Origin: Anthocerotibacter panamensis C109
GTDB lineage: Bacteria > Cyanobacteriota > Cyanobacteriia > Gloeobacterales > Anthocerotibacteraceae
Reading direction: 5' to 3'
DNA length: 64,000 nt
NCBI RefSeq assembly: GCF_018389385.1
Contig: NZ_CP062698.1
Coordinates: forward strand, 1,739,501 to 1,803,500
Positions 30,920 to 55,200 of this stretch are shown piece after piece. The notes under the pieces are model-generated. The model worked only from the letters and a program-made list of their open reading frames with translations. It ran no database searches and was not told the DNA's origin. The translations under genes and the position numbers were made by a program. The first letter of the stretch is position 1, and each line of letters starts with the position of its first letter.

Positions 30920-31975
30920 TCAAGGCTTGGCCCGCTGGTATTGGGGGGGCCAGGGACTAGCTTGCCCGAGGGCGTAGGAGGCGTGGAGGGGCCAGTAGGG
31001 GTCGCGCAGGAGTTCCCGGCCTAGGAGCACAAGGTCTGCCTGCCCGGTGCGCAGAATATGGTCCGCCTGTTGGGGGGCTGTGATAGCTCCTACGGCCCCC
31101 GTCAGTATCCCCGTCTCCTGGCGGATCTTTTCGGCAAAACCAGTCTGGTAACCCGGACCTACCGGAATCGATACGCGGGGTGACGTCCCGCCTGAGGAAC
31201 AGTCCACCAGATCTACTCCCAGGGGCATCAACTGCTCTGTCAGCGCTACCGACTGGGCAAGGTCCCAGCCCCCCGCGACCCAGTCCGTGGCTGAAATACG
31301 AATCCACAAAGGCAGGCTTTCAGGCCATACGTTGCGGACAGCCATCACCACTTCGCGCACGAGGCGCGTCCGGTTTTCAAAAGACCCTCCATAGGCGTCT
31401 GTCCGCTGGTTGCTCAAAGGGGAGAGGAACTGATGGAGCAGATAGCCGTGGGCGGCGTGGATCTCCAGAACCTTGAAACCCGCCTGGAGTGACCGTTCAC
31501 TCCCCCGCACAAAAGCCTGAACCACCCCGGCGATCCCCCGCTCATCCAGCGCATGGGGCTCCCGGTAGCCGTCGTCAAAGGGAAGAGCACTGGGGCCAAC
31601 CGGGGACCATCCTCCTTCTGCGAGCGGCCCGCCCCCTTGCCAAGGTCTTCCAGTTCCCGCTTTGCGTCCGGCATGGGCAAGTTGGACGGCTGGAGCTGCC
31701 CCCTGATCTGCAATAAAGTGGGCAATCCGGGTCAGAGGCTCGATGTGCCCGTCCTCCCAAATGCCTAGGTCCTGGGGGCTGATCCGGCCTTCCGGGACTA
31801 CCGCTGTGGCCTCGGCCATGACCAGACCCGCCCCACCCACAGCCCGACTCCCCAAGTGCACCAGGTGCCATTCATTGGCGTAGCCCTCCTCAGCGGAATA
31901 CTGGCACATCGGAGAGACCGCAATTCGGTTACGCAGGGTAATTCCGCGGATCGTGAGTGGAGAAAATAAGTGCAT
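30920..31975 (-). CDS. namA: Old Yellow Enzyme family NADPH oxidoreductase (YqjM/NamA-like)
   Basis: FMN-containing ene-reductase of 351 residues that reduces alpha,beta-unsaturated carbonyls and other electrophiles. Class III OYE features are seen: [17 protein letters not shown] with the redox-tuning Cys, [26 protein letters not shown], the substrate-site pair within [35 protein letters not shown], and the FMN phosphate site [10 protein letters not shown]. It is the last gene of an apparent unit with yqhD (20 bp gap), preceded by a NemR-like repressor, which suggests a role against reactive electrophiles. Confidence 0.92.
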
Positions 31976-31995
31976 GGCTGCCTCGCTAGGTAGGA

Positions 31996-33150
31996 TTAAA
32001 GGCTGAGTGCTAGAGCCTGACGGACGCCCTCCGGGCCGAGGTCGCGGTTCTCCCCCAAGGCGACCATGCCCCGGCTGACCAAGCGCTCCACGACAACCGG
32101 GATCGTGTCGCTGCTCACCCCGTAAGCCGATAGGCGCGTCGGCACCCCGACCGCTTCAAAAAACTGCCGCGTCCGGGTGATAGCCTGCTCCATGCGCTCC
32201 TCTGCGGTGCCTGAGGTGATGCCCCAGACCCGTTCGGCATATTGCAGGAGCTTGGCCTGTTTCCCCCCGCGCTGAACCGCAAGTACTCCAGGCAGGACAA
32301 CCGCTAAAGTCCGGGCGTGGTCAAGCTCATGCAGCGCGGTCAGTTCATGGCCGATCATGTGCGTCGCCCAATCCTGGGGCACCCCCGCTCCGATGAGACC
32401 ATTGAGCGCCAGAGTCGCGCACCACATGACATTGGCCCGAGCCGCGTAATCAGTGGGGTCCGCGAGCGTCTTTGGCCCCTCTTCGATCAAAGTCAGGAGG
32501 ATGGATTCCGCCAACCGGTCTTGGAGGGGAGCATCCGCCGGATAGGTCAGGTATTGCTCCATCGTGTGTGTGAAGGCATCGACAATACCATTGCCGATCT
32601 GACACGCAGGTAAGGAGAATGTTGCTTCCGGGTCCAGTACCGAGAAGCGGGGGAAGACCAGCGGATGGCTGAAGAAAAGCTTTTCTTGGGTCGCTTCTTT
32701 GGTTACGACCGAGACCGAATTCATCTCTGAGCCAGTGGCGGGCAGGGTCAGCACCGTACCTAAGGGCAAAGCTGCGCTGATGGGGCTCTGTTTCGCCAGG
32801 ATATCCCAGGGGTCGCCCTCAAAAGGCACCGCCGCTGCTATAAATTTGGTCCCGTCCAGGACCGAGCCCCCGCCTACAGCCAGCAGGAAGTCGATCTTTT
32901 CGCGGCGAATCAGGTCTACGGCCTTGAGCAAGGTTTCGAGGCGGGGGTTGGGCTCAATGCCTCCAAATTCCAGAACGGTGTGCTGGCTGAGGGCAGCCAT
33001 TACTTGGTCATATACCCCATTGGTCTTGATACTGCCGCCGCCATAGGTCATCAGCACACGGGCAGTGCGCGGGATCTCCACGGCAAGCTGGGCGATTTGT
33101 CCTTTACCGAACAGCAGTTTTACCGGATTGAAAAACGTAAAGTTCAACAT
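31996..33150 (-). CDS. yqhD: NADPH-dependent aldehyde reductase, YqhD-type iron/zinc alcohol dehydrogenase
   Basis: A 384-residue group III metal-dependent alcohol dehydrogenase, very similar from memory to E. coli YqhD along its whole length. Seen: [64 protein letters not shown], and the metal ligands in [12 protein letters not shown] and [12 protein letters not shown]. YqhD reduces short-chain and lipid-derived aldehydes (glyoxal, methylglyoxal, acrolein types) with NADPH. An 18-bp perfect palindrome lies 21 bp upstream of its start (33172-33189), so repression by the adjacent TetR protein is likely. Close similarity to a proteobacterial enzyme raises the chance of horizontal gain. Confidence 0.93.
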
Positions 33151-33171
33151 GATCGGCTCCGTGATGGTTTT

Positions 33172-33189
33172 AAGTAGACCGGTCTACTT
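33172..33189. promoter_or_regulatory. 18-bp perfect palindrome, predicted NemR-like operator
   Basis: AAGTAGACCGGTCTACTT is its own reverse complement and sits between the TetR-type gene and yqhD, 21 bp upstream of the yqhD ATG. Its core TAGACCGGTCTA resembles the operator reported for NemR-type repressors as I recall it. A second, imperfect copy precedes the repressor gene (33833-33850). Confidence 0.75.
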
Positions 33190-33224
33190 GAATCGAACCC
33201 ATGATTTGAAGGACTACACAAAAC

Positions 33225-33824
33225 CTAGCGCTGTAGGAGGGTGCCAAACATAACGTCCATGAAGGCATGGAGCGGGGCAGGGCTTTTGGTGATCTTCATT
33301 TGTAGGAGCGCCCCCTCCCAACTGTTGATCCAAAACCCGGCTAGTTGCTCAGTATCCAGGTGAGCAGGGATTTCCCCAGCCTGTTGCGCCTCCTTGAGAC
33401 ATTGGGCCAGTCGAGCCTGCCAATCCCGAAAGAACTGCTCAATGCGCACCCGGAAGGTCTCGTTCTGATCCGCTAGTTCCTGCCCCAGATTGCCCAACAG
33501 ACAGCCCTCCCGGCAGTGCAGGGTAGCGAAGTCCGTGCACTTGTCCGCAAAGTAGCGGTACAGGCGTTGCACAGGGCTTAGGGTTGGGTCTTTCAAGTAG
33601 CGCTCCAGCAGGAGGTGATGTTCTTGAATATCGTGGTCAATGATAGCCAAGCCAAACGCCTCTTTGCTGTCAAAGAAGTGATAGAAGGAACCCTTCGGCA
33701 CTCCACTCGCCTGGAGAATTTCCTGCAACCCCGTGTGGTTGTAGCCTTTCTCCCGCAAGATGCGCAACCCCACCCGGATCAAGGCGACCCGTGTCCCGTC
33801 TTTGGTGGGCTGAGCTTTGTGCAT
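33225..33824 (-). CDS. nemR: TetR family repressor, NemR-like
   Basis: A 199-residue TetR/AcrR-type regulator. The N-terminal helix-turn-helix ends with the hallmark GLQEILQASGVPKGSFYHFFDSK (about 32-54), close to E. coli NemR. The ligand domain contains Cys104 and Cys108; Cys108 (in REGCLLGNLGQELAD) aligns by eye with the redox-sensing Cys106 of NemR. NemR senses quinones, methylglyoxal and hypochlorous acid and controls an OYE reductase. Here the downstream genes are yqhD and an OYE. Operator-like palindromes lie before this gene and before yqhD. Confidence 0.85.
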   Translation of the reverse strand: MHKAQPTKDGTRVALIRVGLRILREKGYNHTGLQEILQASGVPKGSFYHFFDSKEAFGLAIIDHDIQEHHLLLERYLKDPTLSPVQRLYRYFADKCTDFATLHCREGCLLGNLGQELADQNETFRVRIEQFFRDWQARLAQCLKEAQQAGEIPAHLDTEQLAGFWINSWEGALLQMKITKSPAPLHAFMDVMFGTLLQR

Positions 33825-34066: not shown

Positions 34067-36082
34067 GTGCAGGCGGAGTTCTGCACCCAGCCTATGAATA
34101 ACCTGCGCACCAGTGAACAAATCCGAGCCGAAATCGAGGCGCGGTTTGGGTTCTTCCCGCCTTTTTTTCGTCCGGCCTTGACTAACCCTCAGGTATTGGA
34201 GAGTTTGTGGCTACAGACTCAGTTCGCCTATCTCTACAATCCCCTGCCGCCCCTTTATAAAGAAAAGCTCTTGGCTTACCTCGCGCGCTACTGTGCGGTG
34301 CCCTATTGTCTGGTCTGCCACAGTTGTACCCTACAGTCTTTAGGGCTCGGTGGACAGGCGGTGCTGCAACTCTTAGCGGCGGTTCCTCCACCAGAGCGAG
34401 AAGTCGAACAGTATCTCCAGGACTGCTACCTCCAGACCCCGTTCAATTGGAGCGATAGGCTAGACCCTGTACTGGAGAAGGGTTTGTTTTACGGTGCGGT
34501 CTTTGTCTTTTTGGACTATGGAGGGCACTATGGAGACTATCTGCGTGAGCTACTAGGACCTATTATTTATCAGCACCTCGTCCTCTTACTCACCTACACC
34601 AAGCTCTGCCATGGCTGGGTCGAAGCCCACCCTGAGATCGTCTACACCGAGGACCGCAGGTTTCAGAACTACTTCGGAAGTCTTCTAGCGGAAGAACCCC
34701 AGTTGGCTGAGTTTGTGGTCAGTTATCAAGAGCAAGTGCGCGCTGAGCGCTGTAGTCGTGCCGAGCGGTTGGCTACTTTGGTAGAGCGCAAGCGCAACGC
34801 AGAAGCCCTCCAGCAGATGACGGCGCGGAATCATCTGCTCGCTCAAGCGGTCGATGCCGTCTCAGAAGGAGTCGTCATCACGGACCCGCATCTGCCGGAC
34901 AATCCCGTCATCTACGTCAACCCCGCCTTTGAGCGCGTCACGGGCTACAGTTCCCAGGAGGTATTGGGGCGCAATTGTCGCTTTCTCCAAGGGGTGAGGA
35001 CCGATCCTCAGACCAAGCAAACACTCCACAACGCCATTGCCCGCAACCAAAAAGTTCAAGTCACGATCCTCAATTACCACAAAGACGGCACCCCATTTTG
35101 GAATGAACTCAAGATCAGCCCGATCTTCACAGACGAAGGGGAACTGCTCTATATGGTCGGAATTCAATCGGACGTCACAGGGCGAAAACTCAACCAAGAA
35201 GCCCTCCAGCAAGCCCGAGATGACCTCGAAATCAAGGTACAGGAGCGGACCCTGGAGCTAGAGCGAGCTAACATCCAGCTCCATCAGGAGATCGCCGAGC
35301 GCGAACGTGCCCAGCAAATACTCAAGCACCAAGCCGCAGAACTGCTCCACGCCGGTCGGGTCAAGGACGAGTTTCTCGCCATGCTCTCCCACGAACTCAA
35401 GACCCCCCTCAATGCCATCATCGGCTTCAGTCAGTTGTTGCGCACCGGTAAACTAGACGCCCAAGCCAGCCAGCGAGCCCTGGAGACGATTGAGCGCAAT
35501 GGCAAACTCCAAGCCCAACTCATTGAAGACCTCCTGGATGTCTCGCGTATTGTCAGTGGCAAGCTACGCCTGGAGCTACGCCCAGTCCATCTGTCCTCGG
35601 TCATCGAAGCAGCCTTGGATACCGTCCACCCGAGTGCTCAAGCCAAGGACATCCATCTGGAATTGGTCTTCCAACCCGGTAGCGGTCTGGTTTGGGGAGA
35701 CCCCAGCCGCCTCCAGCAGGTGGTCTGGAATCTCCTGCTCAATGCCATCAAGTTCACTCCTTCCGGGGGGCGCGTCACCGTGCGGCTGGAGCAGTCCGCT
35801 GAGCAAGTCATCCTCACCGTAGCTGACACGGGTCGGGGCATTGCACCCGAGTTTTTACCCTATATTTTTGAGCGCTTCCGTCAGGCCAACTGTTTAGCGA
35901 CCCGTGCCGAGGGTGGCCTAGGGTTGGGACTGGCTATCGTCCAGCATGTCGTGGCACTGCATTCGGGTACTATCACCGCACACAGCGCGGGTGAGGGCCA
36001 AGGTACAACTTTCATCGTCTCGCTCCCGCATAGGCACGCCTGCGCTCCTCTCGAACCCCCGATTTTATCCAATACGCCGTAA
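34067..36082 (+). CDS. Hybrid AhpD-like / LOV-domain sensor histidine kinase
   Basis: A 671-residue protein of unusual layout. Residues 25-225 resemble the carboxymuconolactone decarboxylase/AhpD fold (FGFFPPFFRPALTNPQVLES), with the redox motif CLVCH (Cys81, Cys84, His85). Residues 256-375 are a LOV domain: GRNCRFLQG with the flavin-adduct Cys304, YVNPAFERVTGYS, ILNYHKDGTPFWNEL, and the Gln of GIQSDVTGRK. A coiled coil (375-425) leads to HisKA with SHELKTPL (His442), then HATPase with LLLNAIKFTPSG, ADTGRGI and GGLGLGLAIV. The start is GTG 34067 or ATG 34094. No membrane segment or adjacent response regulator was seen. Probably a cytoplasmic blue-light sensor with a possible redox input. Confidence 0.9.
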   Translation: MQAEFCTQPMNNLRTSEQIRAEIEARFGFFPPFFRPALTNPQVLESLWLQTQFAYLYNPLPPLYKEKLLAYLARYCAVPYCLVCHSCTLQSLGLGGQAVLQLLAAVPPPEREVEQYLQDCYLQTPFNWSDRLDPVLEKGLFYGAVFVFLDYGGHYGDYLRELLGPIIYQHLVLLLTYTKLCHGWVEAHPEIVYTEDRRFQNYFGSLLAEEPQLAEFVVSYQEQVRAERCSRAERLATLVERKRNAEALQQMTARNHLLAQAVDAVSEGVVITDPHLPDNPVIYVNPAFERVTGYSSQEVLGRNCRFLQGVRTDPQTKQTLHNAIARNQKVQVTILNYHKDGTPFWNELKISPIFTDEGELLYMVGIQSDVTGRKLNQEALQQARDDLEIKVQERTLELERANIQLHQEIAERERAQQILKHQAAELLHAGRVKDEFLAMLSHELKTPLNAIIGFSQLLRTGKLDAQASQRALETIERNGKLQAQLIEDLLDVSRIVSGKLRLELRPVHLSSVIEAALDTVHPSAQAKDIHLELVFQPGSGLVWGDPSRLQQVVWNLLLNAIKFTPSGGRVTVRLEQSAEQVILTVADTGRGIAPEFLPYIFERFRQANCLATRAEGGLGLGLAIVQHVVALHSGTITAHSAGEGQGTTFIVSLPHRHACAPLEPPILSNTP

Positions 36083-40267: not shown

Positions 40268-43200
40268 GTGAGTAATAAAAAACAGACTCCCCGACCCCTG
40301 GTGAGGCTCCTTTCGCGCGTTTCTAGAGTTCTAGCTTTGGCCGCAACGTTTAGCCTCAGTACCGCTGTCCGTGCCCAGACCTCCATAACAGCAGCACCCG
40401 ATGGAACAGGTACTCTGGTCAATGCCAGTGGTAACACCTTCACCATTACTGGGGGAACAACCTCCAGTAGCGGGACCAATCTGTTCCACAGCTTCGCGGA
40501 CTTTGGGCTGAACTCCAACCAGATTGCCAATTTTCAGGCTCTCAGCACCATTAGCAACATCCTGACTCGCGTGACTGGAGGCAATCCCTCGCTCATTGAC
40601 GGTCAAATCCGGGTAACAGGCAGCACCGCTAACCTGTTCTTCCTCAATCCGGCAGGCATCATCTTTGGGGCCAATGCCAATCTAGATGTAGCAGGTTCAT
40701 TTACCGTAAGCACAGCCAACGGTATTACTTTTGGGCAAAATTGGTTTAGTGCCATTGGTCCCAACGACTACGCTGCACTCAACGGTGCACCCCAGGCATT
40801 AGGATTTACAACCGCTCAACCTGGAGCGATTGTCAATGCAGGAAACTTAGCTGTTGGGCCGGGGAAGACCTTAGCCCTAATTGGTGGAACCGTAGTCAAT
40901 ACCGGACAACTCTTGACTCCCGGAGGGACGGTCACTGTGGCGGCGGTACCAGGGGAGAACTATGTCCGTCTAAGTACTGCGGGAAGCGTACTGAGCTATG
41001 ATCTCCCGCTAGCTGATGCCACCCAACCCAACCCCACGACACAGACTGCACTGTCTTTGTCAGAATTGCTGACCAGCCCTCTCGAAACGGGTTTGACCGT
41101 CCAGGGGAATGGCGCAGTAGCGCTGACGGGGACCACTATCCCGACGGATACCGGAACGACTATTGCTAGCGGTCACATCGACGTAACGAGCACAGCCGCC
41201 GAGGGTTTAGGCGGGACAGTCCAGGTTTTTGGTGAGAAGGTTGGTTTGGTCGGTGCCCAGATTGATGCCTCGGGCACAGCAGGCGGCGGGACAGTCCTGA
41301 TTGGCGGGGATTTCCAGGGTAGAGGGACCGTACCCAATGCAGCGCAGACCTATGTCAGTAGCGATTCTTTGATCCAGGCTAATGCTCTTACGCAGGGAGA
41401 TGGTGGAAGGGTAATCGTTTGGGCTGACAACACAACCCAGTTTTACGGCACTATTAATGCCAATGGTGGACGCCTATTCGGGGATGGCGGCTTTGTTGAG
41501 ACTTCTGGGAAAGAGTATTTGGAGGTTTTGGGAGGAGCGGTCAACGCTATTGCCTTTTCTGGAAGAGCTGGAAGTTGGCTGTTAGACCCGCGTGACGTCA
41601 CTATTCAAGATGCAGCAAGCGCTCGCGGTACTTTCACTGGTAGTAATCCTAGTATTTTCACCCCAACAGGAAACAATGCTATTGCTGATCGTAATACTAT
41701 TCAGACTTCTCTTAACAATGGTACGGATGTCACCGTAACTACAGGAACTACAGGCAGTCAACCGGGCAATATCACAGTCCAAAATACCATTACGAAGAGT
41801 TCAGGATCTAATGCTTTACTTACGTTAAATGCGGCTAACGATATCAATGTCAACGCCGATATAACTTCAACCAGCGGACAACTCAATGTAAACCTAGCTG
41901 CTGGCGGAAATATAAACTTTGCTGCCAATGCTGATATTATTACAAATGGGGGGGATCTCAGCACTAGCGGAGTTAATTTTGATAGCTCTAGCGGAACCAT
42001 TAACGCAGGATCTGGGACAGTTAGTTTAGGCCATACTGGAACCGTTAATCTAGGAAATTTGACCGTCGACAGTTTATCTATAACGGCTGGGGATAACATT
42101 ACTGATAGTGGTATCTTGAATGTAGCAGGCGTCACCACACTCAATACAGCAACGAACCGTGATATTACTCTGGATAGCACTACGAATAACTTGAATATTG
42201 TTAGTGTTGTAAATGCCAGGAATGTGAGCTTGGTAGACACCAATGCTATCAATTTAAGTGCTTCCAATATCTCAGGTAATCTGACAGTCACCGCAACAGG
42301 CATCACACAAAATGGCAGTTTAGTAGTAGGGAATGCCACGACCCTCAATGCAGGGATAGGTGATATCCTACTAAATACGAGCACCAACAATTTCAATGTT
42401 GTCAGCGTGACTAATGCTGGGAATGTGACGCTAGTGGATACCAATGCTATCAATCTAGGTACTTCTAACATCTCGGGTAATCTGACAGTCACGGCAACAG
42501 GCATCACACAAAGCGGCAGTTTAGTAGTAGGGAATGCCACGACCCTCAATGCAGGGGTGGGTAACATCACTTTGGGCACGAGCACCAACAATTTCAATAC
42601 CATCAGCGTGACTAATGCTGGGAATGTGACTCTAGTAGACACCAATGCTATCAATTTAAGTGCTTCCAATATCTCGGGTAATCTGAGTGTCAATGCGGCG
42701 GGAGGAAATATTACCGAAAGTGGAGCGTTACGTGTGACAGGCGATAGCTCCTTCACGGTAGCGAATGGAAATTCAATTATTCTTGATGCGAACAACAGCT
42801 TCAATGGGACGGTTGGCTTCAATAGTACAGGCACGATTCGGGATATTACGGTTAGGGATAGTGATGGGCTCAATCTGGCTGGTCTGAATATCTCGGGTAA
42901 TCTGACGGTTACCGCAACAGACATCACACAAAGTGGCAATTTAGTAGTAGGGAATGCCACGACCCTCAATGCAGGGGTGGGTAACATCACTCTGGGCACG
43001 AGCACCAACAACTTCAACACTGTCAGCGTGACTAATGCTGGGAATGTGACTCTAGTAGACACCAATGCTATCAATCTAGGCACTTCCAACATCTCGGGTA
43101 ATCTGAGTGTAAATGCGGCGGGGGGTATTACTGAGAGTGGACCCCTGAATATAACTGGCAACAGTACGTTCACGGTGGCGAATGGAAACTCAATTATTCT

Positions 43201-46200
43201 TGATGCGAATAACAACTTCAATGGGACGGTTGGCTTCAATAGTACAGGCACGATTCGGGATATTACGGTTAGGGATAGTGATGGGCTCAATCTGGCTGGT
43301 CTGAATATCTCGGGTAATCTGACGGTTACCGCAACAGACATCACACAAAGTGGCAGTTTAGTAGTAGGGAATGCCACGACTCTTAATGCAGGGACAGGGG
43401 ACATCACTCTGGGCACGAGCACCAACAATTTCAACACTGTCAGCGTGACTAATGCTGGGAATGTGAGCTTAGTAGACACCAATGCTATCAATCTAGGAAT
43501 TTCTAACATCTCGGGTGCTTTGAACGTTTCTGCGGGAGGAAATATCACCGAAAGTGGATCGGTGCAGGTGACAGGCGATAGCTCCTTCACGGTAGCGGAT
43601 AGAAACTCAATTATTCTTGATGCGAATAATAGTTTCAATGGTGCGGTCAGCTTTACTGCTAGTACTGGCAATATCAATAACTTGACGATAGTCGATAGTG
43701 ACGCACTTGACCTCGCCGTACTCAGAAACATCACAGGCAATCTGACAGTCACGGCAACAGGCATCACACAAAGTGGCAGTTTAGTAGTAGGGAATGCCAC
43801 GACCCTCAATGCAGGGGTGGGTAACATTACTCTGGGCACGAGCACCAACAATTTCAACACTGTCAGCGTGACTAATGCTGGGAATGTGACTCTAGTAGAC
43901 ACCAATGCTATCAATTTAAGTGCTTCCAATATCTCGGGTAATCTGACGGTTACCGCAACAGGCATCACACAAAGTGGCAGTTTAGTAGTAGGGAATGCCA
44001 CGACTCTTAATGCAGGAACGGGTGATATCCTACTGAACGCGAGCACCAACAATTTCAACACTGTCAGCGTGACTAATGCTGGGAATGTGAGCTTAGTAGA
44101 CACCAATGCTATCAATCTAGGAATTTCTAACATCTCGGGTGCTTTGAACGTTTCTGCGGGAGGAAATATCACCGAAAGTGGATCGGTGCAGGTGACAGGC
44201 GATAGCTCCTTCACGGTAGCGGATAGAAACTCAATTATTCTTGATGCGAATAATAGTTTCAATGGTGCGGTCAGCTTTACTGCTAGTACTGGCAATATCA
44301 ATAACTTGACGATAGTCGATAGTGACGCACTTGACCTCGCCGTACTCAGAAACATCACAGGCAATCTGACAGTCACGGCAACGGGCATCACACAAAGTGG
44401 CAGTTTAGTAGTAGGGAATGCCACGACTCTTAATGCAGGAACGGGTGATATCCTACTAAACACAAGCACCAACAATTTCAATGTTGTCAGCGTGACTAAT
44501 GCTGGGAATGTGACTCTAGTAGACACCAATGCTATCAATTTAAGTGCTTCCAATATCTCGGGTAATCTGAGTGTAAATGCGGCGGGGGGCATTACTGAGA
44601 GTGGAGCGTTACGTGTGACAGGCGATAGCTCCTTCATTGTAGCGAATGGAAATTCAATTATTCTTGATGCGAATAACAACTTCAATGGGACGGTTGGCTT
44701 CAATAGTACAGGCACGATTCGGGATATTACGGTTAGGGATAGTGATGGGCTCAATCTGGCTGGTCTGAATATCTCGGGTAATCTGACGGTTACCGCAACG
44801 GACATCACACAAAGTGGCAATTTAGTAGTAGGGAATGCCACGACCCTCAATGCAGGGGTGGGTAATATCCTACTGAACACAAGCACCAACAATTTCAACA
44901 CTGTCAGCGTGACTAATGCTGGGAATGTGACTCTAGTAGACACCAATGCTATCAATTTAAGTGCTTCCAATATCTCGGGTGCTTTGAACGTTTCTGCGGG
45001 AGGAAATATCACCGAAAGTGAATCGGTGCAGGTGACAGGCGATAGCTCCTTCACGGTAGCGGATAGAAACTCAATTATTCTTGATGCGAATAACAGCTTC
45101 AATGGGACGGTTGGCTTCAATAGTACAGGCACGATTCGGGATATTACGGTTAGGGATAGTGATGGGCTCAATCTGGCTGGTCTGAATATCTCGGGTAATC
45201 TGACAGTCACGGCAACGGACATCACACAAAGCGGCAGTTTAGTAGTAGGGAATGCCACGACCCTCAATGCAGGGATAGGTGATATCCTACTAAATACGAG
45301 CACCAACAATTTCAACACTGTCAGCGTGACTAATGCTGGGAATGTGACGCTGGTGGATACCAATGCTATCAATCTAGGAATTTCTAACGTCTCGGGTGCT
45401 TTGAACGTTTCTGCGGGAGGAAATATCACCGAAAGTGGATCGGTGCAGGTGACAGGCGATAGCTCCTTCACGGTGGGGGATGGAAATTCAATTATTCTTG
45501 ATGCGAATAACAACTTCAATGGGACGGTTGGCTTCAATAGTACAGGCACGATTCGGGATATTACGGTTAGGGATAGTGATGGGCTCAATCTGGCTGGTCT
45601 GAATATCTCGGGTAATCTGACAGTCACGGCAACAGACGTCACACAAAGCGGCAGTTTAGTAGTAGGAAATGCCACGACCCTCAATGCAGGGACAGGGGAC
45701 ATCACTCTGGGCACGAGCACCAACAATTTCAATGTTGTCAGCGTGACTAATGCTGGGAATGTGACTCTAGTAGACACCAATGCTATCAATTTAAGTGCTT
45801 CCAATATCTCGGGTAATCTGACAGTCACGGCAACAGACGTCACACAAAATGGCAGTTTAGTAGTAGGGAATGCCACGACCCTCAATGCAGGGGTGGGTAA
45901 CATCACTCTGGGCACGAGCACCAACAATTTCAATGTTGTCAGCGTGACTAATGCTGGGAATGTGAGCTTAGTAGACACCAATGCTATCAATCTAGGAATT
46001 TCTAACGTCTCGGGTAATCTGAGTGTAAATGCGGCGGGGGGTATTACTGAGAGTGGATCGGTGCAGGTGACAGGCGATAGCTCCTTCACGGTGGGGGATG
46101 GAAACTCAATTATTCTTGATGCGAATAACAGCTTCAACGGAACGGTTGGCTTCAATAGTACAGGCACGATTCGGGATATTACGGTTAGGGATAGTGATGG

Positions 46201-49200
46201 GCTCAATCTGGCTGGTCTGAATATCTCGGGTAATCTGACAGTCACGGCAACAGACATCACACAAAGCGGCAATTTAGTAGTAGGGAATGCCACGACCCTC
46301 AATGCAGGGGTGGGTAACATCACTCTGGGCACGAGCACCAACAATTTCAACACTGTCAGCGTGACTAATGCTGGGAATGTGAGCTTAGTAGACACCAATG
46401 CTATCAATCTAGGAATTTCTAACGTCTCGGGTGCTTTGAACGTTTCTGCGGGAGGAAATATCACCGAAAGTGGATCGGTGCAGGTGACAGGCGATAGCTC
46501 CTTCACGGTGGGGGATGGAAACTCAATTATTCTTGATGTGAATAACAGCTTCAATGGGACGGTTGGCTTCAATAGTATAGGCACGATTCGGGATATTACG
46601 GTTAGGGATAGTGATGGGCTCAATCTGGCTGGTCTGAATATCTCGGGTAATCTGACAGTCACGGCAACAGGCATCACACAAAATGGCAGTTTAGTAGTAG
46701 GGAATGCCACGACCCTCAATGCAGGGACAGGGGACATCACTCTGGGCACGAGCACCAACAATTTCAACGTTGTCAGCGTGACTAATGCTGGGAATGTGAC
46801 GCTGGTGGATACCAATGCTATCAATTTAAGTGCTTCCAATATCTCGGGTAATCTGACAGTCACGGCAACAGACGTCACACAAAGCGGCAGTTTAGTAGTA
46901 GGGAATGCCACGACCCTCAATACAGGGGTGGGTAACATCACTCTGGGCACGAGCACCAACAATTTCAATGTTGTCAGCGTGACTAATGCTGGGAATGTGA
47001 CTCTAGTAGACACCAATGCTATCAATCTAGGAATTTCTAACATCTCGGGTAATCTGACAGTCACGGCAACAGGCATCACACAAAGCGGCAGTTTAGTAGT
47101 AGGGAATGCCACGACTCTTAATGCAGGGACAGGGGACATCACTCTGGGCACGAGCACCAACAATTTCAACGCTGTCAGCGTGACTAATGCTGGGAATGTG
47201 ACTCTAGTAGACACCAATACTATCAATCTAGGCACTTCCAATATCTCGGGTAATCTGGGTGTAAATGCGGCGGGGGGTATTACTGAGAGTGGAGCGTTAC
47301 GTGTGACAGGCGATAGCTCCTTCACGGTGGGGGATGGAAACTCGATTATTCTTGATGCGAATAACAGCTTCAATGGGACGGTTGGCTTCAATAGTACAGG
47401 CACGATTCGGGATATTACGGTTAGGGATAGTGATGGGCTCAATCTGGCTGGTCTGAATATCTCGGGTAATCTGACGGTTACCGCAACAGGCATCACACAA
47501 AGCGGCAGTTTAGTAGTAGGGAATGCCACGACCCTCAATGCAGGGGTGGGTAACATCACTCTGGGCACGAGCACCAACAATTTCAACACTGTCAGCGTGA
47601 CTAATGCTGGGAATGTGACGCTGGTGGATACCAATGCTATCAATTTAAGTGCTTCCAATATCTCGGGTAATCTGACAGTCACGGCAACAGGCATCACACA
47701 AAGTGGCAGTTTAGTAGTAGGGAATGCCACGACCCTCAATGCAGGAACGGGTGATATCCTACTAAACACAAGCACCAACAATTTCAACGCTGTCAGTGTC
47801 GTGAATGCTGGGAATGTTACTCTAGTAGATACCAATACTATCAATTTAAGTGCTTCCAATATTTCGGGTAATCTGGGTGTAAATGCGGCGGGGGGCATTA
47901 CTGAGAGTGGACCCCTGAATATAACTGGCAACAGTACGTTCACGGTGGGGGATGGAGCCTCGATTATTCTTGATGCGAATAACAGCTTCAATGGTGCGGT
48001 CAGCTTCGGCAGTGCGGGGAGGATTCAGGACATCACGATAGTCGATAGCAATGCGCTTGACCTCACTCCCCTCAACATCACAGGCGACCTAAATGCTACA
48101 GCAGCAGGTATCACCGATAGTGGTTTGTTGCGTGTGGGCAATAATGCCAGGTTCAACACCGGCACTTCGGGAGGGGACATCACGCTCGATACCCTCTCTG
48201 TCAATGGCACTATTGCGCTGAATACAGGCAGCAATGCGACAATCGTCAATGCCAATGGGGTGAACCTCGCTGCTTCCAATGTTGGTGGAACCCTCTCAGC
48301 CACGGCAACTAATGGCAATATTCAGGATAGTGGGAATGTAGTAGTTGGAGGAAGCGCTAACTTCACTACTGTTGCTAGTGATGCTTCTATTGCACTGGAT
48401 TCCCTGAACATTGCTGGTCCCATTGCACTTAGCACAGGTAGCAATGCGACAATCGTCAATGCCAATGGGGTGAACCTCGCTGCTTCCAATGTTGGTGGCG
48501 TGCTCTCAGCCACAGCGACTAGTGGCAACATTACCGAAAGTGGAGCGTTACGTGTGACAGGCGATAGCTCCTTCACGGTGGGGGATGGAGCCTCGATTAT
48601 TCTTGATGCGAATAACAACTTCAATGGTGCGGTCAGCTTCGGCAGTGCGGGGAGGATTCAGGACATCACGATAGTCGATAGCAATGCGCTTGACCTCACT
48701 CCTCTCAACATCACAGGCGATCTAAATGCTACAGCAGCAGGTATCACCGATAGTGGTTTGTTGCGTGTGGGCAATAATGCCAGGTTCAACACCGGCATTT
48801 CGGGAGGGGACATCACGCTCGATACCCTCTCTGTCAATGGCACTATTGCGCTGAATACAGGCAGCAATGCGACAATTGTCAATGCCAATGGGGTGAACCT
48901 CGCTGCTTCCAATATCAGTGGAACCCTCTCAGCCACAGCAACTAATGGAAATATTACGCAAAGTGGTAATGTGACCGTAGGAAGTTCCAGCACATTCACA
49001 GCAGCGGGTGAAGCCTCGATTCTGTTAGGTAATGTCAATAATGCTTTTGGCGGCAGCATCAGCTTTGGTAGTACAGGCACGATTCAGGATATTACGATTG
49101 TCGATAGTGACGCACTCGACCTTGCGGGGTTAAATATCTCGGGCAACTTGAGTGCTACAGCAGCAGGTATCACCGATAGTGGTTTGTTGCGTGTGGGCAA

Positions 49201-52200
49201 TAATGCTAGGTTCAACGTCGGCATTTCGGGAGGGGACATCACGCTCGATACCCTCTCTGTCAATGGCACTATTGCGCTGAATACAGGCAGCAATGCGACA
49301 ATCGTCAATGCCAATGGGGTGAACCTCGCTGCTTCCAATATCGGTGGAGTGCTCTCAGCCACGGCAACTAATGGCAATATTCAGGATAGTGGGAATGTAG
49401 TAGTTGGAGGAAGCGCTAACTTCACTACTGTTGCTAATAACGCCTTCATTAACCTTGATTCCCTGAACATTGCTGGTCCCATTGCGCTTAACACAGGCAG
49501 CAATGCGACAATCGTCAATGCCAATGGGGTGAACCTCGCTGCTTCCAATGTTGGTGGCGTGCTCTCAGCCACGGCAACTAATGGCAATATTCAGGATAGT
49601 GGGAATGTAGTAGTTGGAGGGAGTGCTAACTTCACTACTGTTGCTAATAACGCCTTCATTAACCTTGACTCCCTGAACATTACTGGTCCTATTGCCTTAA
49701 GCACTGCAAATGGCGGAAATGCCACGGTTGTTAATACTAATATCAATGGCGTGAATCTCGCCACCTCTACTATTGGCGGGGCCCTAGATATCACGGCAAC
49801 CAATGGTAGCATTACGCAGAGTGGGTCAGCATGGGTGGCAGGTAATAGCTCCTTCACTGTGGCAGATAGAGCCTCAGTTCTACTCGGGGCGAACAATACT
49901 TTCGGTGGTAATGTCAGCTTCGGTAGTCTCGGAACACTCCTAGATCTTACTATCATTGATATTTCAGACCTGACCCTCACCACAGTGAATATTGCAGGCA
50001 ACCTTAGTGTTTTGACAACAGGAGGTAGTATTCAAGATGGCGGGATCGTTACGGTTGGGGGCAGTGCTAACTTTACTACTACAGCCAGCAACGCATCTAT
50101 CACGCTTGATACCCTGAATGTAGCAGGTGCTATCTCCTTAAATACAGTAGGTGCAGGCGGAAACGTCACTATTCTCAACTCTAATGCCAATGGGGTGAAC
50201 CTCGCTGCTTCCAATGTTGGTGGCGTGCTCTCAGCCACGGCGACTAGTGGTGATATTCAGGATAGTGGGAATGTAGTAGTTGGAGGAAGTGCTAACTTCA
50301 CTACTGTTGCTAGTGATGCTTCCATTGAACTAGATTCCCTGAACATTGCTGGTCCCATTGCACTTAACACAGGCAACAATGGGAATGCGACAATTGTCAA
50401 TGCCAATGGGGTGAACCTCGCTGCTTCTAATATCGGTGGAACCCTCTCAGCCACGGCAACTAATGGTGATATTCAGGATAGTGGGGATGTAGTAGTTGGA
50501 GGAAGTGCTAACTTCACTACTGTTGCTAGTGATGCTTCTATTACACTGGATTCATTAAACATTGCTGGTCCCATTGCGCTCAGCACAGGCAGTAATGCGA
50601 CAATCGTCAATGCCAATGGGGTGAACCTCGCTGCTTCCAATATCGGTGGAACCCTCTCAGCCACGGCAACTAGTGGCAACATTACCGAAAGTGGAGCGGT
50701 GCAGGTGACAGGCGATAGCTCCTTCACGGTGGGGGATGGAAACTCGATTATTCTTGATGCGAATAACAACTTCAATGGTGCGGTCAGCTTCGGCAGTGCG
50801 GGGAGGATTCAGGACATCACGATAGTCGATAGCAATGCGCTTGACCTCACTCCTCTCAACATCACAGGCGACCTAAATGCTACAGCAGCAGGTATCACCG
50901 ATAGTGGTTTGTTGCGTGTGGGCAATAATGCTAGGTTCAACGTCGGCATTTCGGGAGGGGACATCACGCTCGATACCCTCTCTGTCAATGGCACTATTGC
51001 GCTGAATACAGGCAGCAATGCGACAATCGTCAATGCCAATGGGGTGAACCTCGCTGCTTCCAATATCAGTGGAACCCTCTCAGCCACAGCAACTAATGGC
51101 AATATTCAGGATAGTGGGAATGTAGTAGTTGGAGGAAGCGCTAACTTCACTACTGTTGCTAGTGATGCTTCTATTGCACTGGATTCCCTGAACATTGCTG
51201 GTCCCATTGCACTTAGCACGAGCAGTAATGCGACAATTGTCAATGCCAATGGGGTGAACCTCGCTGCTTCCAATATCGGTGGAACCCTCTCAGCCACAGC
51301 GACTAGTGGCAACATTACCGAAAGTGGAGCGTTACGTGTGACAGGCGATAGCTCCTTCACGGTGGGGGATGGAAACTCGATTATTCTTGATGCGAATAAC
51401 AACTTCAATGGTGCGGTCAGCTTCGGCAGTGCGGGGAGGATTCAGGACATCACGATAGTCGATAGCAATGCGCTTGACCTCACTCCTCTCAACATCACAG
51501 GCGACCTAAATGCTACAGCAGCAGGTATCACCGATAGTGGTTTGTTGCGTGTGGGCAATAATGCCAGGTTCAACACCGGCACTTCGGGAGGGGGCATCAC
51601 GCTCGATACCCTCTCTGTCAATGGCACTATTGCGCTGAATACAGGCAGCAATGCGACAATCGTCAATGCCAATGGAGTGAACCTCGCTGCTTCCAATATC
51701 AGTGGAACCCTCTCAGCCACAGCAACTAATGGCAATATTCAGGATAGTGGGAATGTAGTAGTTGGAGGAAGTGCTAACTTCACTACTGTTGCTAGTGATG
51801 CTTCTATTGCACTGGATTCCCTGAACATTGCTGGTCCCATTGCACTTAGCACAGGCAGTAATGCGACAATCGTCAATGCCAATGGGGTGAACCTCGCTGC
51901 TTCCAATATCGGTGGAACCCTCTCAGCCACAGCGACTAGTGGCAACATTACCGAAAGTGGAGCGTTACGTGTGACAGGCGATAGCTCCTTCACGGTGGGG
52001 GATGGAAACTCGATTATTCTTGATGCGAATAACAACTTCAATGGTGCGGTCAGCTTCGGCAGTGCGGGGAGGATTCAGGACATCACGATAGTCGATAGCA
52101 ATGCGCTTGACCTCACTCCTCTCAACATCACAGGCGACCTAAATGCTACAGCAGCAGGTATCACCGATAGTGGTTTGTTGCGTGTGGGCAATAATGCCAG

Positions 52201-55200
52201 GTTCAACACCGGCACTTCGGGAGGGGACATCACGCTCGATACCCTCTCTGTCAATGGCACTATTGCGCTGAATACAGGCAGCAATGCGACAATCGTCAAT
52301 GCCAATGGGGTGAACCTCGCTGCTTCCAATATCGGTGGAGTGCTCTCAGCCACGGCAACTAATGGCAATATTCAGGATAGTGGGAATGTAGTAGTTGGAG
52401 GAAGCGCTAACTTCACTACTGTTGCTAATAACGCCTTCATTAACCTTGATTCCCTGAACATTGCTGGTCCCATTGCACTTAGCACAGGCAGTAATGCGAC
52501 AATCGTCAATGCCAATGGGGTGAACCTCGCTGCTTCCAATATCGGTGGAACCCTCTCAGCCACAGCGACTAGTGGCAACATTACCGAAAGTGGAGCGTTA
52601 CGTGTGACAGGCGATAGCTCCTTCACGGTGGGGGATGGAAACTCGATTATTCTTGATGCGAATAACAACTTCAATGGTGCGGTCAGCTTCGGCAGTGCGG
52701 GGAGGATTCAGGACATCACGATAGTCGATAGCAATGCGCTTGACCTCACTCCTCTCAACATCACAGGCGACCTAAATGCTACAGCAGCAGGTATCACCGA
52801 TAGTGGTTTGTTGCGTGTGGGCAATAATGCCAGGTTCAACACCGGCACTTCGGGAGGGGGCATCACGCTCGATACCCTCTCTGTCAATGGCACTATTACG
52901 CTGAATACAGACAGCAATGCGACAATCGTCAATGCCAATGGGGTGAACCTCGCTGCTTCCAATATCAGTGGAACCCTCTCAGCCACGGCAACTAATGGCA
53001 ATATTCAGGATAGTGGGAATGTAGTAGTTGGAGGAAGTGCTAACTTCACTACTGTTGCTAGTGATGCTTCTATTGCACTGGATTCCCTGAACATTACTGG
53101 TCCCATTGCACTTAACACAGGCAGTAATGCGACAATCGTCAATGTCAATGGGGTGAACCTCGCTGCTTCCAATATCGGTGGAACCCTCTCAGCCACAGCG
53201 ACTAGTGGCAACATTACCGAAAGTGGAGCGGTGCAGGTGACAGGCGATAGCTCCTTCACGGTGGGGGATGGAAACTCGATTATTCTTGATGCGAATAACA
53301 ACTTCAATGGTGCGGTCAGCTTCGGCAGTGCGGGGAGGATTCAGGACATCACGATTATTGACACATTAGCACTGAATCTCACCGCTTTGGACATCACAGG
53401 CGATCTAAATGCTACAGCAGCAGGTATCACCGATAGTGGTTTGTTGCGTGTGGGCAATAATGCCAGGTTCAACACCGGCACTTCGGGAGGGGACATCACG
53501 CTCGATACCCTCTCTGTCAATGGCACTATTACGCTGAATACAGACAGCAATGCGACAATCGTCAATGCCAATGGGGTGAACCTCGCTGCTTCCAATATCA
53601 GTGGAACCCTCTCAGCCACGGCAACTAATGGTGATATTCAGGATAGTGGGGATGTAGTAGTTGGAGGAAGTGCTAACTTCACTACTGTTGCTAATAACAC
53701 CTTCATTAACCTTGATTCTCTGAATGTTACTGGTCCCATTGCACTTAGCACAGGTAGTAATGGGAATGCGACAATCGTCAATGCCAATGGGGTGAACCTC
53801 GCTGCTTCTAATATCGGTGGCGTGCTCTCAGCCACAGCAACTAATGGCAATATTCAGGACAGTGGGAATGTAGTAGTTGGAGGAAGTGCTAACTTCACTA
53901 CTGCTGCTAGCGATGCTTCCATTGAACTGGATTCCCTGAACATTGCTGGTCCCATTGCACTTAACACAGGCAACAATGGGAATGCGACAATTGTCAATGC
54001 CAATGGGGTGAACCTTACTGCTTCCAATGTTGGTGGGGTGCTCTCAGCCACAGCAACTAATGGTGATATTCAGGATAGTGGGAATGTAGTAGTTGGAGGA
54101 AGTGCTAACTTCACTACTGTTGCTAGTGATGCTTCTATTGCACTGAATTCCCTGAATGTTGCTGGTCCCATTACGCTTAACACAGGCAGCAATGCGACAA
54201 TCGTCAATGTCAATGGGGTGAACCTCGCTGCTTCCAATGTTGGTGGCGTGCTCTCAGCCACGGCGACTAGTGGTGATATTCAGGATAGTGGGAATGTAGT
54301 AGTTGGAGGAAGTGCTAACTTCACTACTGTTGCTAGTGATGCTTCCATTGAACTAGATTCCCTGAACATTGCTGGTCCCATTGCACTTAACACAGGCAAC
54401 AATGGGAATGCGACAATTGTCAATGCCAATGGGGTGAACCTTGCTGCTTCTAATATCGGTGGGGTGCTCTCAGCCACAGCGACTAGTGGCAACATCACCG
54501 AAAGTGGAGCGGTGCAGGTGACGGGCGATAGCTCCTTCACCGTAGCGAATGGGGCCTCGATTCTGTTGGATAATGCCAACAATACGTTTGGCGGTACTGT
54601 CAACTTTGCCAGTACAGGCACCCTTCGGGACATCACAATTGCTGACACCACTGCACTGAACCTTCAGGCACTCCGGCTGACGGGTGACCTTGACGTAGCT
54701 GCCGCGGGGATTACCAGCAGTGGAGCACTCGTTGTTGGTGGAACAACGACTCTGGCGGCGGGGGGTAACAATATCACCTTGAGCAACAGTAACAACAACT
54801 TCAGCACCGTGAGCGTAACCAGTGGTCGAGATGTGACGCTGGCAGACCTTGATTCCCTTGACCTTGGAGCCTCTAATCTCACAGGGAATCTGAGCCTGAC
54901 TGCTGCCGGGATTACAGATAGTGGGGCGCTCGTTGTCGGTGGAACAGCGACCCTGGCGGCGGGGAATAACGACATCACCTTAGACCAGGGAGAAAACAAC
55001 TTTAATACGGTGAGTGTGGTCAGTGGTCGAAACGTGACTCTAGTCGATGCTGATGCCCTCAACCTCGGAACCTTCAATGTCGCGAATAACCTGACCCTCC
55101 AGGCTGGAGGAGCCGTGACCCAGACCGGAGGAATCACTGCCACTGGACTAGCGTTGTTAGGAGATGGATCCTACACTTTGACGCGCAGCGATAACGATGT

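Follow-up and report, generated by a model that had tools for sequence, protein, structure and literature searches.

Several described photoreceptors place a LOV domain with an adduct cysteine ahead of a histidine kinase, among them Brucella LOV-HK, Caulobacter LovK, and the engineered YtvA-FixL chimera (PDB ID: 4gcz). LOV-HK is an HWE kinase, and LovK reads flavin redox as well as light. The protein analyzed here has the same domain order; it differs from these kinases in carrying an additional N-terminal module, and its kinase core is of the HisKA/HATPase_c type, unlike that of LOV-HK. The module itself appears to share a helix-pair region with AhpD and the peroxidase-related proteins (TIGR01926; PF02627, CMD), represented by M. 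tuberculosis AhpD (PDB ID: 1knc, 1gu9), PA0269 (2o4d), and the entries 6k40 and 2ouw. The pattern of the AhpD relay is given in PMC3141380 as E-x11-C-x2-C-x3-H, with Glu118, Cys130, His132, Cys133, and His137 in M. tuberculosis AhpD and Glu36, Cys48, Tyr50, Cys51, and His55 in PA0269; in the same paper TTHA0727, in which the equivalent of Cys130 is replaced, was taken to be without peroxidase activity.

The gene lies in a 64,000-nucleotide stretch of the Anthocerotibacter panamensis C109 genome, which is called the window here. An open reading frame (ORF) of 671 codons was confirmed at 34067-36082 on the forward strand, to which all coordinates within the gene given below refer; it encodes an N-terminal module (residues ~10-234), a LOV domain with Cys304, a linker between the two, and then HisKA and HATPase_c. 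Because related proteins begin with MRTSEQ, the likely start is the ATG at 34094 (Met10) rather than the GTG at 34067, from which residues are numbered throughout.

The LOV signature that the initial annotation had read as complete, within a histidine kinase, was borne out. Pfam places PAS_9 at residues 257-371 (34835-35179; E 6.8e-25), the motif GRNCRFLQG occupies residues 301-309 with the adduct cysteine at Cys304 (codon 34976-34978), and Asn303, Gln308, Asn336, Asn346, and Gln367, which we take to be the usual flavin-pocket positions, are all present. When this part was compared with the PDB, its closest solved relatives were LOV photoreceptors and LOV kinases (9vf7_A, E 2.3e-40; 4gcz, E 4.5e-36). 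HisKA, the dimerization and phosphoacceptor domain, follows at residues 433-497 (35363-35557; E 4.1e-19), with the H box SHELKTPL at 441 and His442, and the HATPase_c catalytic domain at residues 544-656 (35696-36034; E 7.1e-30), with DTGRGI at 587 and GLGLGLAI at 617. These are the sequence features of a LOV photoreceptor (PAS fold, GxNCRFLQ motif, adduct cysteine, flavin-contacting Asn and Gln) and of a sensor histidine kinase of the HisKA type (an H box, followed by a complete HATPase_c); a Pfam scan of the 671-residue protein found no receiver domain. In the genome, searched as one contig of 4,187,797 bases, the N-terminal module occurs in a single copy and the coding pattern for G-x-N-C-R-F-L-Q has one match, inside this gene.

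The module family and its partner domains

With residues 1-234 as query, 292 genomes of the phylum yielded matches in 13, and in four of these the sole hit was weak (L011-L014; 80-90 residues, 24-29% identity). Searches with a profile, A1, found matches in 10 of 386 phylum genomes and in 28 of 388 class genomes. We took as the module set all A1 profile matches but for the weak G397:C1:153103 (E 1.3e-5) and dropped L011-L014 before counting. The set comprises 50 modules, that of the window among them (residues 10-234; 34094-34768, bounded at its start by the MRTSEQ of the relatives), and is drawn from 30 genomes of the same phylum as the window. Further afield, a plasmid of Pseudomonas sp. HR96 encodes a relative with 25% identity across 98% of the module, and counts given out of 51 modules include it. 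In a sample of 198 genomes around one of Nocardia, two match weakly over ~90 residues each, and the Nocardia locus L002 was dropped as a 23-residue chance match. None of 30 pattern matches in viral contigs was a relative, and phages gave no match.

Pfam has no name for the module: at a threshold as lax as E 10, no match lay wholly within residues 1-255. It belongs to long proteins, with ORFs of 607-1663 residues in 49 of 50 cases (the exception, L129, has 213), and is mostly N-terminal, starting beyond residue 140 in L047, L097, L106, L108, L109, and L127. Of 12 relatives scanned with Pfam, ten have a PAS or GAF domain together with HisKA/HATPase_c, and L045 has a GGDEF/EAL output. Two kinases of the same phylum, L040 and L052, share the module, and their kinase core shows 54% identity to that of the window protein; they differ in that an ordinary PAS domain replaces LOV and a C-terminal receiver is added. 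The Pseudomonas relative is an ORF of 260 residues followed by an HWE kinase ORF and then a response regulator. Since 11 of the 12 scanned relatives pair PAS/GAF with HisKA/HATPase_c or GGDEF/EAL, 49 of 50 ORFs span 607-1663 residues, and the Pseudomonas ORF precedes a kinase and a response regulator, a sensor role for the module is suggested.

In the Pseudomonas plasmid (L037:4962-6353) the module ORF and the HWE kinase ORF are in-frame and 24 bases apart, and could be a split fusion. L048:4167-8189 encodes a 1340-residue protein in which the module is joined to a LOV-like PAS domain without the cysteine and then to acyltransferase-3 and glycosyltransferase-2 domains, which are unusual as the output of a sensor.

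Relation of the module to AhpD

Of the N-terminal 225 residues that had first been annotated as AhpD-like, similarity to AhpD is detectable over residues ~17-102 (34115-34372) only. Against a profile of seven AhpD/peroxidase-related proteins of the window's phylum, hhalign scored an alignment of 13 modules at 95.1% (E 3e-8, 86 columns) and one of 50 module rows, of which the program kept 46 and from which L041 was left out, at 96.1% (E 3.6e-9, 83 columns), both E values being those of a single comparison and not of a database search. The controls (10 and 30 column-shuffled, 2 reversed) were all at or below 1.62%. Because the match lies far above these controls, remote AhpD homology of the first half of the module, at the level of the catalytic helix pair, is well supported. 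Residues 110 onward (110-225) had no match to the same profile (hhalign 0.2%), and on this score we rejected the idea that the second half repeats the AhpD part.

The window module alone matches no NCBIfam model at E 0.1 and no Pfam model, so that neither of the curated family models, CMD and TIGR01926, is passed. Among the 49 other members, 11 match the TIGR01926 "peroxidase-related enzyme" model weakly (best E 4.3e-4), and apart from it no NCBIfam model was matched by more than one; for Pfam CMD, a laxer scan gave a match in 1 of 13 members (E 0.11), and a scan at E 0.1 gave none in 49. When PDB sequences were searched, designed helical proteins ranked first and second (0.0022 and 0.0039, over the module's C-terminal part) ahead of AhpD 6k40 in third place (0.045); we take the former for helical chance matches, yet they count against a strong AhpD claim. 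Two single-sequence structure models of the module are of low confidence (mean pLDDT 42 and 61), and Foldseek searches with them returned no significant match; CMD/AhpD entries stood at ranks 5 and 7 (E 3.4 and 4.0) and were not counted.

The relay and cysteine stretch Glu66-Cys76-Val78-Tyr80-Cys81-Cys84-His85-Cys87 (34262-34327) lies within the AhpD-like part. It is gapless in both hhalign alignments, and MAFFT opened one column beside it to fit a residue that a single AhpD-type row has. In this register Glu66, Tyr80, Cys81, and His85 match Glu36, Tyr50, Cys51, and His55 of PA0269, four of AhpD's five relay residues, and Val78 stands at the position of Cys48. The motif CLVCH (residues 81-85) had initially been taken for AhpD's redox pair, Cys81 and Cys84, an identification that alignment register and conservation reject: the first cysteine of AhpD corresponds to position 78, which is Val in 40 of the 51 modules, Ile in 9, Arg and Thr in 1 each, and Cys in none, and Cys84 lies one helical turn beyond Cys81 and is not equivalent to AhpD's other cysteine. 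The CxxC in register with relay Glu and His that marks an AhpD peroxidase is thus lacking, with Val78 for the first Cys. Since that cysteine is replaced, AhpD-type peroxidase chemistry would not be expected here, by the logic applied to TTHA0727 in PMC3141380.

The relay residues and the cysteines are highly conserved in the 51 modules: Glu66 is kept in 49, Cys76 in 49, Tyr80 in 50, Cys81 in 47, Cys84 in 47, His85 in 48, and Cys87 in 48. A second motif, Cys181-His182-x-Trp184 (34607-34618), is similarly kept (47, 49, and 51, respectively), and Gly28, Pro59, Lys65, and Leu72 are, like Trp184, invariant. The family has a conserved set of its own, Cys76, Cys81, Cys84, His85, Cys87, and Cys181-His182-x-Trp184, and the window module departs from AhpD in lacking the first CxxC cysteine, in its extra conserved cysteines, in a second half that is unrecognizable, in passing no curated AhpD/CMD model, and in its fusion to signaling domains. 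The conservation has exceptions. Cys81 is absent in 4 of 51 modules, one of them being L050, where LOV is attached and Glu66 and His85 are absent as well; from L041 the stretch is missing altogether. In the Pseudomonas relative the residues retained are Glu66, Cys76, Tyr80, Cys81, His85, His182, and Trp184, and those lacking are Cys84 (Arg there), Cys87, and Cys181; since it retains Cys76 and Cys81, these may be the oldest cysteine pair in the sample, on the thin support of one distant sequence.

Two alternatives bear on how these residues would work. The module could be a true AhpD-type peroxidase or thiol-disulfide adaptor acting through Cys81 and Cys84, as its AhpD kinship, the retention of Glu66, Tyr80, Cys81, and His85, and the presence of Cys84 in 47 of 51 modules might indicate; given a first cysteine replaced in every module, a Cys84 on the other side of Cys81, and an Arg at 84 in the Pseudomonas relative, we consider this highly improbable. 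Alternatively, Cys76, Cys81, Cys84, His85, Cys87, Cys181, and His182 could bind metal as an iron-sulfur cluster, zinc, or haem, making the module a gas, redox, or metal sensor. Five cysteines and two histidines so highly conserved, the spacing C-x4-C-x2-C-x2-C, and a CLVCH that also reads as CxxCH would suit such a site, but a ligand set would be expected to be kept or lost as a whole, whereas the losses are single (Cys84 in 4/51, Cys87 in 3/51, Cys181 in 4/51) and only Cys76 and Cys81, of the five cysteines, are retained in the Pseudomonas relative. A c-type haem, which the CxxCH would suggest, is considered only as one form of this alternative; its covalent attachment requires export, and neither a signal peptide nor a membrane segment was seen by eye. 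On balance we regard metal binding as unlikely.

Pairing with LOV and a possible second input

A LOV motif with its adduct cysteine follows 19 of the 50 modules, in 15 of the 30 genomes. The initial annotation knew of no described protein with this order. The order is not singular among sequenced relatives. A search of the open-access literature for an AhpD-type protein with a histidine kinase, PAS, GAF, or LOV domain found no paper; subscription papers lay mostly outside that search, so a description elsewhere is possible. The position of Glu210 and the LOV motif are 91 residues apart in 12 of the 19 proteins, the window's included, and 81-90 apart in the remainder, across a linker that is helical by appearance (residues ~218-255; 34718-34831). 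Simple patterns for the second Asn pair and for the Gln failed in 2 and 6 of the 19, respectively, so not all of them need be photoactive; the window protein passes both. On a module tree of 49 rows (L129 left out) the LOV label changes five times if L048 is counted as LOV and six times if not, which argues for more than one gain or loss of the pairing; the window module sits on a long branch whose placement is unsupported. Recurrence in related bacteria makes the pairing look like a genuine signaling design. Glu66, Cys81, and His85 are jointly kept in 16 of 19 LOV-linked modules vs 29 of 31 others.

The module is best read as a recurrent sensory input whose first half probably derives from an AhpD/peroxidase-related scaffold. 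We tentatively propose that the window protein is a two-input histidine kinase that senses blue light, in which the module is probably a thiol-based sensor and not an AhpD peroxidase, a reading we would place a little short of evenly balanced. Cys81, activated by Glu66 and His85, would undergo a reversible reaction with an oxidant, electrophile, or thiol partner, and Cys76 or Cys84 might serve as its partner; the resulting change could reach the LOV dimer by way of the helical linker and bias or gate the light-controlled kinase, which would phosphorylate a response regulator encoded elsewhere. The cue sensed is probably a redox one, with reversible thiol chemistry as the first candidate and metal binding as the second. 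That light and thiol redox state are joined in one kinase, as initially suggested, is a reasonable inference from sequence. The proposal is favored by the recurrence of the LOV pairing, with 91-residue spacing in 12 of 19, by the AhpD-like first half with its TIGR01926 matches, by the sensor proteins in which the module occurs, and by the relay residues and cysteines conserved in 51 modules; it is weakened by the absence of Cys81 in 4 of 51 and of the relay stretch in L041, by a second half of the module that matches nothing assigned, by the low-confidence models and insignificant fold searches, and by the designed proteins that outrank AhpD in the PDB sequence search.

The module might instead be a structural dimerization or small-molecule-binding domain, its cysteines structural and LOV the sole sensor. 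The five invariant positions (Gly28, Pro59, Lys65, Leu72, and Trp184 in 51/51) and a fixed linker length that fits a rigid dimer are consistent with this, as are L050 and L125, in which the LOV motif is intact although Cys81 has been lost. Against it, several cysteines and the residues of the relay rank among the most conserved positions, and we find the structural role rather doubtful.

Were the two-input proposal correct, an antioxidant-enzyme scaffold would have been turned into a signal input. Phototrophs need to tell useful from damaging light, for which redox state is a natural second cue, and a recurrent module at fixed spacing before LOV offers a direct test of a second input gating a photoreceptor kinase. 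Whatever it senses, the module is a domain of sensor proteins that Pfam and NCBIfam miss. It is possible, if far from assured, that it represents a sensory family outside both collections, in which an AhpD scaffold with a rewired Cys/His center (thiol switch or metal site) was used repeatedly in the signaling proteins of the phylum and, when joined to LOV, lets blue light be read only in a redox context.

Gene neighborhood

Partner genes were surveyed at 14 loci with long flanks, and ten co-directional downstream genes were scanned at 8 of them. Response regulators lie downstream at L041, L042, L043, and L047, and other downstream genes are CheR-TPR at L050, starch synthase at L044, and DUF6929 at L045; a shared operon partner was rejected. 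No common theme emerged from seven genes, upstream or adjacent, that were scanned at 7 loci. At one locus, 20 bases past a module-PAS-HisKA-REC gene, L052:7280-8944 encodes a response regulator fused to a pyridine nucleotide-disulfide oxidoreductase (thioredoxin-reductase-like), which favors the two-input proposal. A tblastn search of 49 loci and the window, many with flanks of 1-2 kb, found such a fusion at none of the other 48 loci nor in the window; that the redox-enzyme neighbor was found at no more than 1 of 50 loci weakens the same proposal.

The window kinase is divergent from a TetR-family regulator (33225-33824, reverse strand; Pfam), which heads an Fe-alcohol dehydrogenase gene (31996-33150; Pfam) and an old-yellow-enzyme gene (30920-31975; Pfam). 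We take this cluster (30920-33824) to resemble electrophile-response clusters such as nemRA. Because tblastn found these genes at none of the 49 other module loci, the neighborhood is not evidence for the function of the kinase. The next long gene downstream encodes a CHASE2 Ser/Thr kinase (Pfam).

A bacteriorhodopsin-like gene (L039:6920-7648) adjoins a module-PAS-GGDEF gene, and the window itself contains, at 40268-57115, an ORF of 5615 residues in which units of the type NISGNLTVTATGITQSGSLVVGNATTLNAG recur very many times.
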